A stretch of DNA of 64,000 bases from NCBI GenBank assembly GCA_903882665.1, contig CAIRXW010000003.1, positions 1 through 64,000 of the forward strand. The letters are read 5' to 3'. The position numbers and the translations under genes are program-made. The stretch comes from an uncultured Chlorobiaceae bacterium (GTDB lineage Bacteria > Bacteroidota > Chlorobiia > Chlorobiales > Chlorobiaceae). Below are positions 46,116 to 55,079 of the stretch, piece by piece. Numbering within the stretch: position 1 is the stretch's first letter; each line of letters opens with the position of its first letter. The notes under the pieces were generated by a model. It saw nothing but the letters and a program-made list of their open reading frames with translations. It was not told the DNA's origin and ran no database searches.

Positions 46116-46131
46116 GCCGCCACGAGGCGGC
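46116..46131. terminator. GC-rich hairpin downstream of VR1
   Basis: A 6-bp stem (gccgcc / ggcggc) with an ACGA loop is followed on the plus strand by ATTTTT. It lies beyond the VR1 hairpin at the end of the target gene. A similar stem (gaccacc / ggtggtc) sits at 52348-52364 after VR2, so both target transcripts may end this way. Confidence 0.5.
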
Positions 46132-46170
46132 ATTTTTCGGTTGTCGGTCGTTCCCGCAAAATTATGGTGC

Positions 46171-46195
46171 ACAGCAGCGCTCCGCTTGCTGCCGT
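46171..46195 (-). repeat. DGR-associated hairpin 3' of VR1
   Basis: On the minus strand the stem is ACGGCAG / CTGCTGT with one G-U pair and an 11-base loop, beginning 64 bp past the VR1 end. The equivalent stem after VR2 (52402-52426) is ACGGCAG / CTGCCGT with a different 11-base loop. DGR target genes are known to need a hairpin or cruciform near the VR. Confidence 0.65.
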
Positions 46196-46210
46196 TCACC
46201 ACAATTTTGG

Positions 46211-46259
46211 TAACTGCCCTCTCGCTCAAAAAGCAAAGCCGGAATGAGCTGCCAACTGA
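46211..46259 (-). repeat. Conserved flank 3' of VR1, identical to that of VR2
   Basis: This 49-bp block, extending by one base into VR1, is identical to 52441-52489 after VR2 but absent beside the TR. It lies between VR and hairpin and is a candidate cis signal marking a target for mutagenic homing. Confidence 0.75.
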
Positions 46260-46390
46260 CTACGGGACGAAAACAAGGCGGAAGCCAAAGTAGTTGTACC
46301 GGTAGTCGGGAGGGTAGTAGTACCGATAAGCCGACCGACAGCGCTCGGCAGGGTAGTTCCAGCTCCCGCCACGAATTACACGGGACGAAC
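46260..46390 (-). repeat. DGR variable repeat VR1
   Basis: Aligned without gaps to the template repeat (offset 4462 bp), VR1 differs at 15 positions. Fourteen are at adenines on the coding strand and one is a G-to-T change at 46289. Its first 28 bases from the 3' end (coding) are identical to the TR, the expected initiation-of-homology segment, and the repeat ends exactly at the stop codon. Eight of the twelve template Asn codons have become Tyr. Confidence 0.95.
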
Positions 46391-49300
46391 GACTATCGTC
46401 ATACCAACTATCCGTCCATTCCCATACATTTCCTGCCATATCATACAGCCCTTCCGGGGTTGCACCTTCAGGATAACTGCCAACGGGTGTTGTCTGGCCA
46501 ACATTGCTCTTATAGTTGAGCAGTTTTGAGTTTGGCTCACCTTTATCTTTCGGCCAGGGATATTCACGTTTTTCTTTCCCTGCTGCGGCATACTCCCACT
46601 CCCATTCTATGGGTAAACGATACCTCCTGGTATCCTGACCATTGCTTTCCATGAGAGAGAGCCATAAGCAGTAGGTGCGGGCAGCATACCAGCTCACTCC
46701 GACTACTGGCTGATCGTCCTCCCTGAAGCGCCGGTCATCATCATATTTTGAGCGGAACTGTTTCGATAGTTCAGGTTCTTCACCCAAACATGTCTGAAAT
46801 CCGGGAATAGTCTTTGCAAGTTCAAAGAGACTGTCTTTCAGGATTTCATCTGCCTGCCCATTATCAACCGATTGCAGCCAGGTAATAAATTTGCGATAGA
46901 GTTTATTGGTCAGTGGATATTTGGCAACATAGAGATCCCCCACTTGCTCTTTACCATCTACGGAGTGATGGCCGTTTTTGATAAGAATGTACTGGGCGTT
47001 CTGTTCGATGGGGCTGAAATGGACATCGCCATAAGACTCAACAAGCTCTCTCGGTCTGACAAGGATGGCAGGGCGCTCCTGTTCATCGGTCAGTACCACT
47101 TCATCGGCTTTTCTGAGCAACTCCTGATCTACCTCCGGATGCAGCCTTTTGAACTCTTGTGCGGCCTCAACGGCCTGCCGACTGCCGACCGTTTTCAGGC
47201 ATTCGAGGATGTAGTATTGGCGATCACGTGTGGTTACTCGATCACGGAGCTTTTCACAAAATGCTTCAACCGTTTGAGGAGCCTTGCGGATTAACTTCTG
47301 AAGAAAACCGAGGGTTCGCTGATCGAGGGATGCGCTCCGGGGTGCATCAAAAAAGGCTTTCATAAATTTGTTGAACCAGAACGCATCAACTTGCGCCACA
47401 AAAAAGAGCAGTGGTTCATCCCACCAATCAATCCCAACCTGCTCCACAAGCTTGCCGATACGCTCAGGCTCAGAGGTGACACATTTTACCAGTCGAAGAC
47501 CTGCAAGATATTCCCGGAAGGTTTTGTGACTGAAAACGTAGGTCGATCCTGATTTACCGAGAACGCCAGCTCGCCTGACCAGATTGTCGCAAATCTTTTC
47601 CGCGCTATATTTGCTCCGATATTTGTAGTCCAAAAGATCAACATCTTGCTGCATCCGATCATGAAACTGCTCAATATCAGCAGCATCCTCATTGCGGTCC
47701 TGCATCCAGAGGGAGAGCGGTTCCAGCAGCTTCTTTGACTCTGTTGCCGGAAGAAAAGGAGTGATTTTTTTATCATCTTCCCGATAAAAAAGGAGATAAT
47801 CAAGTGCTACGTCATAGAGCTTTTCACGATTGCCGGGTATCGCCTTGCTTTGCTTCCAGAGAATTGCCATGAGCTGCAAGAGAAGCGGTATACCGGCGAG
47901 GTCGTTCCGCAAGCCACTGTTTTCCGGCAGGGAAAGATAGGTGTCGAGGGCAGCAGCACTTTTTTCAGCTTCTTTTTCTTTTTCGGTTATTCTCTGCTGA
48001 CCGAACCCTTTTTCGTCACGATGAAGGTCACGCAAAAACGCTGCCCGAAACCATTTTTGCAAAAACAGGCGCTGTTGTTTTTCACTGAAGCGCTTGACCC
48101 AGGCAATCTCTTTTTCGATTTTCAGTGCGTTCTGCTCCTTTTCGCCATACCCCTTGTCGCGCGTAGTTATGACAAAAAAAGCCTTTTTCCAGGTTTTAGC
48201 AGCTTCAGAAACCCATGTACATATCGTTACCCGTTGCTTCTCGTCACTGATTTCATCAAGTCCATCCAGCAAGACCAGCGAAGAATGGGTTTTCAGGCGA
48301 TCCTCAAAAAAGCTTTTTTCAATCTTCAGATGAGGCTCAAAGCATTGCGATAATTTTGCATGAAGCGATTGCCGCTCTTCACCCGGAATTGCCATTTTGC
48401 TCAAGGGCATGTAGAGTATCGGCACAGGAAAAGCAAAACCCTTCAACCTGATGGTGCTGCTCAGGGCAAAATGCTTGATAATGGTTGTTTTGCCTGAACC
48501 CGGTTCTCCGATAATGAGCAGCAGCCGCGATCGCTCCACGGCATAGAGTAGTGCATCTTCAGGATTGACATCAGACGTTTTGGATTCTGAACCCTCAATC
48601 CCCTGTTGTTTATAGCGCTCATTGACAGAAATATCAAGTGGCACAAAGGTATCCGGCAGATTGACCGCCTCTTTATCGCCATCAATACCCGGCATTCCAA
48701 AAATCGAATTCTTGCCCAGCTCCTCTTTCAGGCGTTCATGATAACGCCTTGCATCTTCTTCATTTTTTTTGTCAAATGGTGGTGTCGTTATATTAGCAAG
48801 AGCCCCTTTGCCATCATCACCAGAGGATGACGAGCCACCATCAGGGCATCCCTGAAACGGAAAGCTTCCGATATATGATGGCGAAGGAAAGACACTGGTA
48901 TCAAGTGTCCAGACTTCGTGAGGGCTGTCTTCATAGCGAATCGGAAAGATGGTTACCTGATTCTTTTCGCAGGTAGCATACATGGCGCTGTTTGGCCACT
49001 CCCGTTTCTGGTACGAGGCTCCGGCAGCAAGCTTCAGATATCCGCCATCCGCTGAAACAATGCTTGCTGTCTCCGTCTCATGGTAATGGCCATGCAGCAA
49101 CAGATCAACCGATTTGCTCAGAGCTGCTGTTATGTTTGCTCGTTCCACCTTACTCAGCCAGTCGAGGGGATGGTGTGTCAAGGCTATGGTAAGATCCGCC
49201 GCAGCAAGCAGCTTCTTTGCTGCATCGAGACACCGGCGACCTATGAAGAGTTTCTGATGGTCATGATCATCAATACAGAAGAGTGCACTGTTCAGGGGCA

Positions 49301-49946: not shown

Positions 49947-50246
49947 TTAAAACTTACCGGTTCTCATACGCCAATTTTTTGGATCACGATTGAGATGCAT
50001 GATGGCACCGACACGAATAACATCACTGTCTACTCTGTAAAGCACACCATAAGGGAAACGATTGAGCAAACATCGACGGGTTTGTCTCGAAAACAATGGC
50101 CACGATTCAGGGAAAACCTTGACCCGATCAAAAGCACGTTTGACTTCGGCAGCAAATTCATACCCAAGTCCGGGGCATTGTGCATTGTAATAATCTACCG
50201 CCTCTGCAAATTCCTCTTCTGCAATGGAGAGAATGACAATATTCAT
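49947..50246 (-). CDS. RelE/ParE family toxin
   Basis: The 99-aa protein has the ParE/RelE fold pattern: AEEEFAEAVDYYNAQCPGLG near residue 9, FPESWPLFSRQTRRCLLNRFPYGVLYRV, and a final beta strand with VIRVGAIMHLNRDPKNW. It overlaps the antitoxin gene by 4 bp. It probably inhibits gyrase (ParE) or cleaves mRNA (RelE); the choice cannot be made by eye. It lies between the DGR core and target 1. Confidence 0.88.
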   Translation of the reverse strand: MNIVILSIAEEEFAEAVDYYNAQCPGLGYEFAAEVKRAFDRVKVFPESWPLFSRQTRRCLLNRFPYGVLYRVDSDVIRVGAIMHLNRDPKNWRMRTGKF

Positions 50247-50467
50247 CTCTGATTGATCCTTGCAAAAACATCTTCTGCTGATGACGCCTTGATTTCACCA
50301 CGGTCATAAGCGTCAAATCGAGATTCGACCTCTTCTGCCCACGCAGCATCGACGGTATTGCGTACGGCACAATCAAAACTCTGAAAAAGTTTTTCGATAA
50401 GCTCAGCCCTCTCTACAGGAAGCAAATCGAGAGCATCTTTGAAAATACGTTCTGTGACTGCTGTCAT
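50243..50467 (-). CDS. Addiction-module antitoxin (Unstab_antitox type)
   Basis: The 74-aa acidic protein carries LDLLPVERAELIEKLFQSFD near residue 13 and ends with EDVFARINQR, matching the unstable-antitoxin family paired with ParE/RelE toxins. It precedes and overlaps the toxin gene in the usual order. Confidence 0.88.
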   Translation of the reverse strand: MTAVTERIFKDALDLLPVERAELIEKLFQSFDCAVRNTVDAAWAEEVESRFDAYDRGEIKASSAEDVFARINQR

Positions 50468-50721: not shown

Positions 50722-50853
50722 CTACGGGACGAAAACAAGGCGGAAGCCAACGTTGTTGTTCCGGTTGTCGGGTTGGTTGTTGTTCCGATTAGCCGACCGA
50801 CAGTTCTCGGCAGGGTTGTTCCAGCTCCCGCCACGAATTACACGGTTCGAACC
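50722..50853 (-). repeat. DGR template repeat (TR)
   Basis: This 132-bp non-coding repeat, 17 bp past the reverse-transcriptase stop, matches both VRs without gaps. Read in the VR frame it encodes twelve Asn codons (eleven AAC, one AAT) at positions that vary in the targets; AAC cannot become a stop by changes at adenine. The frame is not preceded by a target gene here, so the TR is RNA template only. It lies downstream of the RT on the same strand and is probably part of the RT transcript. Confidence 0.96.
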
Positions 50854-50870
50854 CACGACTGATGCCCTTG

Positions 50871-51872
50871 TCATTCAATGGCCACCATTGCAGAGTACAC
50901 ATTTTTTCGAAATTCTCTTGCATCGGCGTATTCGGTACATGCCACCAATGGCAAGGCGTGGTTTGCAAACTCTTTTTGTGTCCATCGCCCTGTTTGCAGG
51001 TAGTGGTCATAAAGCAGGGATTTCTGGATAAAACGCTTTTTGCTTTGCCGGGCAAGGCGCACAGATCCCGGAAAAAGCAAATAGCCCAGAAAGGGCAACC
51101 CTTTACTGCTCTCGTTCAAACAAAAGGGCTTGAGCTGAAGCCGCAACTCCCTTGAAAGATATTCCTGAAAGCGGTAGCCGATTTCGAGCAATGCCTCTTT
51201 ATCGTGATGCCACAACACCATGTCATCCATATAACGGACGTATGCTGGAATGCGCAGACCCTGTTTGAGATCATAATCGGCCATCGAAAGATAGTGGTTG
51301 GCAAAGTATTGGCTGGTCAGGTTGCCAATTGGAAGGCTTTTTTCGGCTGCGGTTGAGTAGCTGTCAATTATTTGCTGGAAAATCAACAGCACATCCTTGT
51401 CTTTGAACATACGACAAAGCTGTTGTTTCAAAATGGAGTGGTCAATGCTCTCAAAATATTTGCGGACATCAAGTTTCAGGAACCAGCGGTAGTGACGATG
51501 ATACTCCCGTGCCCTGTCGAGCGCCGAGTATGTGCCTTTTCCGGGTCGGCTTGCAAAACTGGTGGCAATCTGCTGCTTTTCGAACGAAGCGTGGCAGACA
51601 TTCATCAGCGCATGGTGCAGCACCTGCTGCGAAAAAGGTGTGGCACAAATCAACCGCTTTTTAGGGTCGTAAATAGTGAAGGTGTGATAACCTCCCGTTT
51701 CGACGGTGCCCGAAAGGAGTTGCTGCTGCAAGCGTTGCAAATTTTGCTGTAACTGCTTTTTATAGGAGTAAACGTAGTGTTTGGAAACTTTGCCTTTTTG
51801 CGCCTTGTAGAATGCCTCATAAAGATTCTTCAGATCAGCTATCTGCTGAAGCAACTGCCCCTGACGTTTCAT
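50871..51872 (-). CDS. DGR reverse transcriptase
   Basis: The 333-aa protein is a group II-like reverse transcriptase with the compact DGR layout. [13 protein letters not shown] (near 132) and [13 protein letters not shown] (YMDD near 214-217) form the active site. [16 protein letters not shown] (near 180) carries the motif 4 SQ variant seen in DGR RTs. It has no maturase, HNH or RNase H domain. I place the start at the ATG at 51872, inside the HRDC gene; the frame is open to 51989 but that segment is the HRDC gene in another frame. It copies TR RNA with adenine errors into VR. Confidence 0.95.
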
Positions 51873-52308
51873 TGGGTTCCGGGTTTTCAATGAAATAGTG
51901 AGCAAAACGCTCGGTTTTCTTTTCGCCAATGCCTTTGATGCTGAGCATACTTTTGATGGTGATCTCTTCGAGTTTTGCGAGTTCGGCAAGCTCTTCGTCG
52001 GTAAAGACGATAAAGGCCGAGAGCCCTTCTGTTGCGGCTACTGTTTTGCGTATTTCACGCAGGTGCGAAAATTTCTGAAATGTTGGCTCATCGAGCACTT
52101 GACGGTAATCAACCTTTGCCTTGCTCCCGGATACCGCGCTGAAGGCTTGCTCGATGTAACGAACACAAAAGCACCAGTTGGCTCCGTTATTGTTGCTGAT
52201 CAGCTTTTGCTCAATTTCCAGAATTTTATGTGCTTTGAGAAAGGTGTTCATCTCCTGTAGCGCGCTCCCGCTGTCACCGATGGGTATGGTAAAAAGTTTT
52301 ATCTGCAT
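51835..52308 (-). CDS. HRDC-domain DGR accessory protein
   Basis: The 157-aa protein has a conserved N-terminus (MQIKLFTIPIGDSGSALQEMN) and a C-terminal HRDC helical domain (residues about 80-145) with FQKFSHLREIRKTVAATEGL and LSIKGIGEKKTERFAHYF. HRDC proteins are recorded as accessory genes in a subset of DGRs, where they replace or supplement Avd. It overlaps the RT gene by 38 bp, implying translational coupling. It probably assists cDNA priming or RT-nucleic acid binding; this is inference. Confidence 0.85.
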   Translation of the reverse strand: MQIKLFTIPIGDSGSALQEMNTFLKAHKILEIEQKLISNNNGANWCFCVRYIEQAFSAVSGSKAKVDYRQVLDEPTFQKFSHLREIRKTVAATEGLSAFIVFTDEELAELAKLEEITIKSMLSIKGIGEKKTERFAHYFIENPEPNETSGAVASADS

Positions 52309-52364: not shown

Positions 52365-52401
52365 GGTTCTGTAGTCGGTGGTTACATGAAAATCATGGCG
52401 C

Positions 52402-52426
52402 ACGGCAGTTCGTCCCTCTCTGCCGT
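52402..52426 (-). repeat. DGR-associated hairpin 3' of VR2
   Basis: A perfect 7-bp stem (acggcag / ctgccgt) with an 11-base loop, 63 bp beyond VR2. It is the counterpart of the structure at 46171-46195, with the stem conserved and the loop different. Confidence 0.7.
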
Positions 52427-52440
52427 TCACCACGATTTTG

Positions 52441-52489
52441 TAACTGCCCTCTCGCTCAAAAAGCAAAGCCGGAATGAGCTGCCAACTGA
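52441..52489 (-). repeat. Conserved flank 3' of VR2
   Basis: Identical to the block after VR1 (46211-46259). Located between VR2 and its hairpin. Confidence 0.75.
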
Positions 52490-52621
52490 CTACGGGACGA
52501 AAACAAGGCGGAAGCCAACGTAGTTGTACCGGCTGACGGGTAGGCGGTTGCGCCGATAAGCCGACCGACAGCGCTCGGCAGGGTTGTACCAGCTCCCGCC
52601 ACGAAGAACACGGTTCGAACC
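52490..52621 (-). repeat. DGR variable repeat VR2
   Basis: VR2 aligns to the TR without gaps (offset 1768 bp) and differs at 15 positions, all at coding-strand adenines. The first 28 bases from the 3' end are identical to the TR. Asn codons have become Tyr, Arg or Ser, and others changed (Ile to Leu, Asp to Val, Gln to Leu). It ends at the stop codon of target 2. Confidence 0.96.
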
Positions 52622-54733
52622 GGTTGCAGGGCCAATCGGATTTTCAACTATCCCCTTTGCTTTACACTCGTCATAAAAGCTCTCACCATACCAGTCGGTG
52701 CACCACTCCCACACATTGCCGTGCATATTGTACAATCCAAACGCATTAGGTTCCAGACTCTCAACTGCTACCGTATTATTCCGATACTCTCCTTTAGGGT
52801 GTTTGTTGTACGGAAAGTTGCCGTTATAATTCGCCTGTTTTGTTGTCAGATTTTCACCTGTACTGAATGGTGTTGTTGTGCCTGCCCGGCATGCATACTC
52901 CCACTCCGCTTCTGTGGGCAACCGGTATGTTTTCCCGGTTTTTGAACTCAACCAGGAACAATATGCCGTAGCATCGTTCCAGCTTACATGCAACACCGGA
53001 TGATTGTATTCTTCTGGTTGACGCTTCTCTCCCGACACACCATGCCGCCAGTTTATACCCGTTTTATCAATCCACGCTTTTCCATCCCATATTCTGCTGC
53101 TGTTTTGCTTTTCCGCCTCTGTCTGATACTTTAACTCTTCAATAAATCTCTTGAAATCAGCGATGGTCACCGCATATTTGCACATATAATAATCAGACAA
53201 TGTTACAGAATGCTGCATCTCAATATTTTCTCTGCCTCTTTCGTTGTCTGGACTGCCCATTAAAAACTCGTCACGTTCTATCCTTACATAATTTGATAAA
53301 ACAAGAGAAGCTATACCAGCTTCCGAACAAAACTGTTTTACCATATCCATTCCGGTAAAATCAAGCTTCATGGCAAAATCAGGATTTTCGGCAGCTTCTT
53401 TTGCCAGAAAAAACTCAAGAATTGACTTATGGGAAAATTTCCAGTTGTTTTCTGCGTCACGCGTCATAAGCGATTCTCCTGTCATGTGATAATCTTGTAA
53501 ATCAACATTAACATCAGTCGCATCTTTTCTGGATAAATAAAGCACTTTTGTCTCTTTTCGTTTTTCGTAAATGCGCAAAGCTATCTGGCGAGAATAGTAA
53601 TGAAGACTTTGTCTGAATTTTTCAGAGTCGTTATGTTCATCTTCCCTTTTTTTAACTTCCCTGTTAATCCATCCATCTACAAGAGCTTGATAAATTTGAT
53701 ATGTATTGCTGTATCTTTTTGTGCTATCAACCAGCACCTCAATGTAATTAAGCAGCATCGGGCGAACCATAAGTTTTTTAGAATTGTGCACAATTTGACT
53801 GGCAATGGCTTTTTTTCTGCGTTTCCGGATATTTAACTTGCCATATTTTTTATCCAGATACCGATTAATATCATGGTCATCAAACGGTGAGAGATACATT
53901 TTCACCAGTTCATAGTTACCCTTGTCATCATGGCGTCTGATTTCCAGTTTATATGGCTTGTTCTCATTCTGTTCAGGAAAATATTGTGTTCGACAGGTCA
54001 TAACAACCTTACGGAAATCACATACGGAGTCAATCACCTCATTGAGTACCTTGTCAAACCATTGTTTATCATTATCATTGCCATTATTGCTTTCAGGACA
54101 ATCTACAAGTGTATCGGGAGGTATCAATTTATTATACTCATCGAAAGCATCAAGCAATAATATTGTTTTTGCTGGATCTTCTTTTTTTTTGATCTTTTTG
54201 ATGTTATCAAGAATTTTCGTATCACCAAAAGGCAACAATTTTATTTTATATTTTTTTTTAAAATTAAAAAACGAGGTGTACCTCCAATAAAGATTGATCA
54301 TAAATGTTGTTTTCCCCATTCCAGAGTCCGCAAGCACCAGGTAAAATCTGTTTTCTTCTTTTTTCCTGAATGCTTCTTCTATAAAAAACGGTATTAATGG
54401 TTTCCGCACAATAAAAGCACCAGAGGTACCTGGCTCATCCTCAATTGAGGGGGTAATATTCTGTGCTCTGGTCTCAATATAGTATTGTGTTTTAGACTGC
54501 ACATTCTCAGGATTAAACTGATATTCAACCAACTCCCTGCTTGTCTTGCAGTTTCGATAATGATTGTACAATCGTTTAATGAGTAATCTGCAGCAATAAA
54601 AAATAAAGCCCACAACTCCCCAGGTTGCCCAGCCTTGTGTTCCGGTCAATGCGTTGTTTATCCAGTCAATGATCATCTTCATGCTTTTATCACTTATGAT
54701 TTCAACTCGCCTTATATTTATTTCAGGATTCAA
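52490..54733 (-). CDS. DGR target 2: membrane-anchored NACHT-FGE/C-lectin protein
   Basis: The 747-aa protein has one predicted membrane helix near residues 33-53, a NACHT/STAND NTPase from about 110 (Walker A ADSGMGKTT at 135-143; Walker B TILLLDAFDEY near 190) and an FGE-sulfatase/C-type lectin domain from about 486 (EFLMGSPDNERGREN, VLHVSWNDATAYCSWLS, GNVWEWCTDWYG, RGGSW) ending in VR2. The predicted start is TTG 54733; ATG 54679 (residue 19) is an alternative. It lacks the phosphoesterase of target 1, so membrane disruption or signalling is a possible output. It heads the target 2-HRDC-RT-TR order on the minus strand. Confidence 0.92.
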   Translation of the reverse strand: MNPEINIRRVEIISDKSMKMIIDWINNALTGTQGWATWGVVGFIFYCCRLLIKRLYNHYRNCKTSRELVEYQFNPENVQSKTQYYIETRAQNITPSIEDEPGTSGAFIVRKPLIPFFIEEAFRKKEENRFYLVLADSGMGKTTFMINLYWRYTSFFNFKKKYKIKLLPFGDTKILDNIKKIKKKEDPAKTILLLDAFDEYNKLIPPDTLVDCPESNNGNDNDKQWFDKVLNEVIDSVCDFRKVVMTCRTQYFPEQNENKPYKLEIRRHDDKGNYELVKMYLSPFDDHDINRYLDKKYGKLNIRKRRKKAIASQIVHNSKKLMVRPMLLNYIEVLVDSTKRYSNTYQIYQALVDGWINREVKKREDEHNDSEKFRQSLHYYSRQIALRIYEKRKETKVLYLSRKDATDVNVDLQDYHMTGESLMTRDAENNWKFSHKSILEFFLAKEAAENPDFAMKLDFTGMDMVKQFCSEAGIASLVLSNYVRIERDEFLMGSPDNERGRENIEMQHSVTLSDYYMCKYAVTIADFKRFIEELKYQTEAEKQNSSRIWDGKAWIDKTGINWRHGVSGEKRQPEEYNHPVLHVSWNDATAYCSWLSSKTGKTYRLPTEAEWEYACRAGTTTPFSTGENLTTKQANYNGNFPYNKHPKGEYRNNTVAVESLEPNAFGLYNMHGNVWEWCTDWYGESFYDECKAKGIVENPIGPATGSNRVLRGGSWYNPAERCRSAYRRNRLPVSRYNYVGFRLVFVP

Positions 54734-55079
54734 AAAAGACCTTTCTCAAACCCCCACCATCATCGATGGAAAGAATATTCCCTCCTTGGAACTCTGCCTG
54801 ACAGCGGTTGATATTGAACATCTTTTCGAATGTTGTTTCCAGGACGATGACTGCTTTGAGGTTAAGTTTGGTGTCGGCGAGTTTTTGCTCTCTGGTTTTG
54901 ATCTTTTTGCAAAGGCCGAATGTCGGGTTGCTGAGGCTGCGATTACCGATAACGTTCTCTCCTGCCGGTAAGTTAAAGAAGGAATGATGGTCACGGAGAA
55001 ACCTTGCTTCGCTTTCGTAGCCATTGGCCACGCCTGCCTTTTTTGCATGAGCCCAAAGTTCTGCCAGTTGAGGTGTCAT
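54723..55079 (-). CDS. Hypothetical 118-aa protein or gene remnant
   Basis: The frame overlaps the start of target 2 by 11 bp. The product is soluble, with a mixed charged composition (starts MTPQLAELWAHAKKAG). I recognise no family. It may be a real small gene at the head of the target 2 operon or the eroded end of a longer gene. Base composition is close to that of the island. Confidence 0.35.
   Translation of the reverse strand: MTPQLAELWAHAKKAGVANGYESEARFLRDHHSFFNLPAGENVIGNRSLSNPTFGLCKKIKTREQKLADTKLNLKAVIVLETTFEKMFNINRCQAEFQGGNILSIDDGGGLRKVFFES

Follow-up and report, generated by a model that had tools for sequence, protein, structure and literature searches.

Results

Layout of the locus

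The window, the 64,000-nucleotide stretch of Chlorobiaceae DNA analysed here, carries on its minus strand, in this order, a gene that we call target 2, an HRDC accessory gene, a reverse transcriptase (RT) gene, a template repeat (TR), a ParE-type toxin/antitoxin pair and target 1 (Table 1). The RT is of the DGR type with intact catalytic motifs, the accessory gene lies beside it, and the TR is paired with a variable repeat (VR) at the end of each target. Of the 32 adenines of the TR, 15 are changed in VR2, against 0 of its 100 other bases (Fisher p 2.6e-11); in VR1 the changes number 14 of 32 adenines and 2 of 100 other bases (Fisher p 1.5e-8). The locus is a DGR and not a chance repetition. 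Adenine changes in the TR can reach no stop codon and allow, by computation, ~1.7e17 protein variants. The two targets have in common the TR, ~44 variable codons and an element behind the stop codon. In a genome search, the RT was the single match and hence is the sole DGR RT of this genome (G000). The ParE pair is also retained in G012, a genome whose DGR RT is 90% identical, with ParE pieces that are 93–100% identical.

Target 1 matches PADLOC PDC-S60 and NCBIfam DS8_antiphage through its N-terminus, both partially, and lacks a membrane helix. For target 2, the sequence-only reading had placed the start at TTG 54733, which falls inside the upstream ORF; the alignment of orthologues instead favours ATG 54682 (MKMIIDWINN...), which is probably the start and gives a protein of 730 aa. 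The ORF directly upstream (54723–55079, 118 aa) has no match in Pfam or NCBIfam and belongs to no family that we recognise.

Table 1. Features of the DGR locus and of its two targets (positions in the window)
Feature	Position	Strand	Basis
Target 2, predicted membrane-anchored NACHT/STAND NTPase with C-terminal FGE (C-type-lectin-like) domain	52490..54682	-	ORF, orthologue alignment, Pfam, structure models
Predicted transmembrane helix GWATWGVVGFIFYCCRLLI, followed by basic KRLYNHYRNCK	54578..54634	-	Hydropathy, model, family position and charge
NACHT/STAND NTPase with winged-helix region	53303..54400	-	Motifs, fold matches, profile comparison
Walker A, DSGMGKT	54308..54328	-	DSGMGK invariant in 71 relatives, T in >=90%
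FGE-sulfatase-like domain (sensor scaffold)	52502..53290	-	PF03781, E 1.8e-61
Variable repeat of target 2 (VR2)	52490..52621	-	Compared with TR; ends at stop codon
Post-VR element of target 2 (TAGTCAGTTGGCAGCTCATTCCGG..., its TAG being the stop codon)	52367..52489	-	Absent from TR; shared with target 1
HRDC-domain DGR accessory protein	51835..52308	-	PF00570, E 8.3e-14; overlaps RT start
DGR reverse transcriptase	50871..51872	-	PF00078 (RVT_1), E 1.6e-14; IGNLTSQ and YMDD read from translation
Template repeat (TR), 32 adenines	50722..50853	-	Repeat comparison with VRs
ParE-type toxin and antitoxin pair, between TR and target 1	49947..50467		
Target 1, metallophosphoesterase–NACHT–FGE, 1178 aa	46260..49796	-	PF00149 1.7e-13, PF05729 3.5e-12, PF03781 7.4e-41
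Variable repeat of target 1 (VR1)	46260..46391	-	Compared with TR
Post-VR element of target 1	46120..46259	-	Sequence comparison

An NLR-like NTPase in a family that spans several phyla

In Pfam, target 2 has no match to PF05729 (NACHT), and nSTAND5 and nSTAND3 are matched at sub-threshold level only. An AlphaFold model of its N-terminal 475 residues, built on 71 relatives (pLDDT 88, pTM 0.86), nevertheless matches NLRC4 with a Z score of 17.7 over 348 residues and also NLRP3 and NOD2, with AVAST5 and EfAvs5 as lower-scoring matches, and profile–profile comparison with the NACHT of target 1 (hhalign) gives a probability of 95% (E 1.8e-8). The earlier claim that target 2 keeps a NACHT is therefore right as a fold and not as a Pfam assignment: as modelled, the NTPase is an NLR-like STAND, with a Walker B (ILLLDAFDE) that is conserved in its family, and on sequence grounds it and the NTPase of target 1 belong to two different subfamilies. 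A full-length model on 12 orthologues was poor (pLDDT 60), leaving the FGE part unresolved. A PDB sequence search with the helix–NTPase part gave 0 matches, none of the PADLOC and NCBIfam defence models covers this part, and PADLOC has no match for target 2.

Scanning genomes with the NTPase alignment, we kept 80 loci, 77 of them with a usable N-terminus, from Chlorobiota, Bacteroidota, Verrucomicrobiota, Calditrichota, KSB1, Spirochaetota, Chloroflexota, Lachnospiraceae and others; a scan of genome contigs with the single target 2 protein as query returned 0 loci. A clear TR for the membrane-NACHT gene, with differences that are confined or nearly confined to adenines, is present at 14 of the 80 loci, which come from Chlorobiaceae, Chlorobaculum sp. 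24CR, a verrucomicrobium, Bacteroidia, Chitinophagales, Caldithrix and three KSB1. The second targets on the TR of a membrane NACHT include a phosphoesterase-NACHT (L107), TIR proteins (L113, L115, L181) and a KAP NTPase (L114). At the KSB1 locus L181 the variable domain is Lcl_C instead of FGE and the partner target is a TIR-Lcl_C protein; Lcl_C is likewise found in the partners at L183. Across phyla, one template thus recurrently serves a membrane NLR together with a target that carries another effector. The sequence-only reading had proposed alternate effectors on one recognition module, which holds as a design rule that recurs in related loci, but not in the sense of a single module, as both the FGE lineages and the NTPase subfamilies differ. 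In the KSB1 loci L175, L181 and L183, a distant DGR, with an RT that is ~27–31% identical, diversifies this membrane-NACHT type as well.

Across the relatives the place of the sensor is taken by FGE, pentapeptide repeats, LRR or Lcl_C, with pentapeptide repeats or LRR (the latter in L156) in those that have no DGR in view. In the sequences compared, the helix–NTPase part stays constant while the sensor is exchanged, a pattern that would follow if output came from the helix end and sensing from the C-terminus.

A predicted membrane anchor with the NTPase in the cytoplasm

As had been claimed, target 2 has a helix with family support where target 1 has its phosphoesterase. The helix of target 2 lies near the lower limit of hydropathy (Kyte-Doolittle KD19 1.47), which weighs against its being the anchor of a membrane receptor, and because a KD19 of 1.4 is reached by 36% of shuffled family N-termini, the hydropathy of target 2 alone is modest. 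In the family, KD19 is at least 1.6 in 56 of 77 relatives versus 21% of shuffles, and the K/R count is higher after the helix than before it in 52 of 56 relatives and lower in 1. The distance from helix end to P-loop is exactly 83 residues in target 2, and in the 77 relatives with a usable N-terminus its median is 83.5 with the middle half at 83–85. In the AlphaFold model, a helix runs through residues 17–52, with pLDDT ~90 across residues 21–60. The fixed position of the helix together with its flanking charges argues for a membrane anchor, and the positive flank on the NTPase side predicts an N-out/C-in topology that would leave both NTPase and sensor on the cytoplasmic side. An apparent signal peptide ahead of the same helix in two orthologues fits an N-out end. 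Most likely, then, the helix is an anchor with a cytoplasmic NTPase and not a signal peptide. Export of the NTPase by a cleavable signal peptide, which the sequence-only reading had named as the finding that would overturn it, is not supported by these data.

If it were a signal peptide after all, or if the protein were oriented N-in/C-out, the FGE tip would sample the periplasm. We consider such an arrangement very improbable. Dore et al. do predict a periplasmic NACHT-CLec as second target of Thiohalocapsa DGR 3 (PMC10907252), and the remote third target described below looks exported. Against this stand the charge rule, the KRLYNHYRNCK segment right behind the helix with an AxA/signal peptidase motif absent on inspection of the helix region, the cytoplasmic ATP that an NTPase needs, and the retention of the helix in those orthologues that have gained a signal peptide.

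Several close Chlorobiaceae relatives (L113, L115–L117, L123 and L132) have a shortened, non-membrane version, and the anchor is therefore dispensable in some. These relatives retain NTPase, FGE and VR, suggesting that output may not depend on the helix; together with the single modest helix of target 2, they favour an explanation whereby the helix serves as an anchor only and the membrane-tethered NLR signals through its NTPase or a partner, leaving the membrane unharmed. We see this as a possibility to be held tentatively, because no adapter domain was found and because the helix of the family keeps a fixed distance in what is the effector place of NLRs and Avs proteins while C-terminal sensors are swapped.

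Sensor scaffolds of two separate lineages

The earlier claim that target 2 retains an FGE/lectin domain with its VR is borne out by the PF03781 match and the adenine-restricted VR2. Matches of this domain in the PDB include T. denticola TvpA (2y3c) and FGE enzymes. Of the two cysteines that the catalytic pair of human FGE would lead one to expect, VR2 RGGSWYNPAERC contains one. The phylogeny suggested by the sequence-only reading, which had raised an origin of the two FGE domains by duplication, was computed from 43 FGE domains with the VR removed. It sets the target-1 type apart from all others by a branch of 2.37 changes per column with support 100/100, and each type has its own orthologues in other genomes, those of the target-1 type within the genus. 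Target 1 and target 2 are therefore not local duplicates. The shared TR, the similar VRs and the similar 3' flanking elements are what one would expect of a recent local duplicate of target 1 with its N-terminus replaced, yet with scaffolds on opposite sides of so long a branch, separate orthologues and NTPases of different subfamilies, we find this scarcely credible. Rather, the separate FGE lineages and NTPase subfamilies indicate that what the two genes share is the template and not a duplicated sensor.

The proposition that the target-2-like FGE domains form one clade was rejected (p-AU 1e-4), which indicates that FGE scaffolds move between N-terminal modules. On the target-2 side, scaffolds are joined to TIR, EAD-like, exported and STAND N-termini.

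One template for targets in different predicted compartments

Comparison with G012 points to use of the template since the two species split. Between the two genomes the TRs differ at 4 sites and the VR2s at 22; TR adenines account for 20 of the VR2 differences, and the other 2 fall where the TRs themselves disagree. Judged by this comparison, VR2 has been rewritten since that split.

The sequence-only reading had one TR diversifying two sensors. The TR does serve both genes, but two is an undercount. A remote third gene (C6:45976-46803; L063:2465-3418) differs from the TR of the window's contig (C3) at 17 of 32 adenines and 0 of 100 other bases, and encodes an FGE protein that begins with MKPKRPCSIVSALFLAVFLLFSGALPAKATA, by eye a classical signal peptide. 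The TR thus fits target 1, target 2 and a signal-peptide FGE protein, that is, at least three different proteins of this genome with, as predicted from their sequences, different outputs and compartments. The adjoining lipoprotein-like FGE gene (L063:4433-5563) has a VR with 7 non-adenine differences, and is therefore either older or supplied by another TR. The genome also contains a second cassette, with a TR but without an RT (G000:C11:21400-27100, L049). Its two targets are an 838-aa EAD-like and a 513-aa TIR-FGE protein, one VR differing at 12 of 27 adenines and 0 of 105 other bases; with one DGR RT in the genome, this cassette is either served in trans or a recent fossil.

Similar arrangements are found elsewhere. 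G012 has a comparable exported gene on another contig (L208; 21 of 32 adenines and 2 non-adenine differences). In G018, a remote target of the membrane-NLR TR is a caspase-FGE protein (L210; Peptidase_C14, E 1e-40; 0 non-adenine differences) whose start resembles a signal peptide, and in G067 a single TR serves a zinc-ribbon/TM-FGE gene and a target-1-type gene. Given these exported or differently armed targets, sensors of cytosol, membrane and exterior on one template appear to be recurrent.

A conserved element behind the variable repeats

Nine genes of this genome have the post-VR element TAGTCAGTTGGCWGCTCATT directly behind the FGE reading frame. The element is found right after the stop codon of an FGE target in 31 of 65 genus genomes (loci L049, L062, L063, L064, L069 and L186–L203), is shared by nearly all VR genes of the genus that we examined, and in 30 of 31 distinct copies examined comes after a ...GFR(L/P)xFVP-like end; a reversed-pattern control gave 0. 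It is likely to be a cis element that marks a VR as recipient. The BPP-1 phage DGR likewise has a hairpin/cruciform, a conserved cis element directly 3' of the VR and outside the TR homology (PMC3240598), whereas the element described here is longer and conserved in sequence (TAGTCAGTTGGCWGCTCATTCCG...), that of BPP-1 being a 7–10 bp stem with a GRNA loop; when the post-VR element was folded as RNA, no hairpin of the BPP-1 type formed consistently.

An interspersed repeat was considered for the shared 3' flank and dropped, because every copy detected in the genome lies behind an FGE target gene. Both targets are also followed by a long inverted repeat (CAAAATTGTGGTGAACGGCAG...CTGCYGTGCRCCATAATTTTG; 46136–46230 and 52367–52440), which is imperfect, has changes on both sides and may be a terminator or a MITE-like sequence.

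Discussion

Altogether, our results favour, with good though not full confidence, a model in which target 2 acts as an NLR-like receptor anchored in the membrane, and in which the neighbouring DGR rewrites the FGE/lectin tip at its C-terminus. Its domain order fits that of an N-terminal effector, a central STAND NTPase and a C-terminal sensor, with the helix as the presumed effector. In this model, a VR variant of target 2 would bind a molecule of an intruder, upon which the NTPase would open and oligomerise as NLRs do; the oligomer would gather the N-terminal helices in the inner membrane, and the resulting damage would stop the infected cell. Target 1 would respond through its phosphoesterase. 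An antiphage function and membrane killing by target 2 are what we infer from this architecture.

Alternatively, the targets of this DGR might be receptors for self/non-self or kin recognition, or sensors of cell-surface ligands, with no part in defence against phages. For most cellular DGR targets the ligands are believed to be extracellular (PMC8144416), and here the third target looks exported and the neighbouring paralogue lipoprotein-like. We nonetheless regard this as unlikely, since two of the three targets are predicted to be intracellular and since fusions to NACHT, TIR, caspase and the DS8/PDC-S60-related phosphoesterase point to defence and cell death.

The general class has been published, and so, for Thiohalocapsa, has the alternate-effector rule. 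Dore et al. 2024 found pairs of STAND-CLec targets with modular N-termini and differing predicted locations in clade 5D DGRs, noted TIR, KAP and metallophosphoesterase domains, proposed antigen sensing and counted multicellular Chlorobi among the hosts (PMC10907252). In their Thiohalocapsa PB-PSB1 DGR 3 and DGR 6, as here, each TR has two STAND NTPase-FGE/CLec targets with differing N-termini (PMC10907252). The locus described here differs in that its membrane target is a member of a helix-NACHT family, here defined and traced through several phyla, with an NTPase predicted to be cytoplasmic, and in its remote exported third target, its FGE scaffolds of different lineages and its genus-wide post-VR element. 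What is added here is this family and its predicted topology, the deep FGE split, the recurrent exported third target, the second lectin type and the post-VR tag. A single TR in T. denticola serves up to seven targets, remote ones included, with an HRDC accessory (PMC4891356); this TvpA-type DGR resembles ours in having far-apart targets per TR, an FGE/CLec variable domain and an HRDC gene that overlaps the RT (PMC4891356), but its targets are mostly surface lipoproteins whereas those described here include intracellular NLR-like proteins.

Similarly to Avs and bacterial NACHT defence proteins, target 2 has a presumed N-terminal effector, a central STAND NTPase and a C-terminal sensor, consistent with the AVAST5/EfAvs5 fold match; its sensor, however, is a DGR-diversified lectin fold, its N-terminus is one membrane helix and a PADLOC match is absent. 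With the animal NLRs NLRC4, NLRP3 and NOD2 it shares NACHT and winged helix, and with L156 the family includes a member with an LRR sensor. In contrast to these NLRs, target 2 has a membrane helix in place of a CARD or PYD, and a sensor rewritten by reverse transcription.

We speculate, with about equal weight for and against, that one RT template feeds a receptor set guarding three compartments, composed of a cytosolic phosphoesterase-NLR, a membrane-helix NLR and an exported lectin (an exported caspase-lectin in a relative), and that the helix-NACHT family is a cross-phylum bacterial NLR lineage that acquired its hypervariable tip on two or more occasions, using two different lectin folds, FGE and Lcl_C. 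A metagenome survey, by its own account, missed remote DGR targets (PMC8144416); with the genus-wide post-VR tag, every target of a DGR can be found from sequence, even a remote one. The membrane NLR family is a small, testable module. If the receptors respond to phage, this would be an antibody-like scheme in which one mutable tip is copied onto receptors of different output and location. The spread of the design over compartments and phyla recommends it as a good model of bacterial adaptive immunity.
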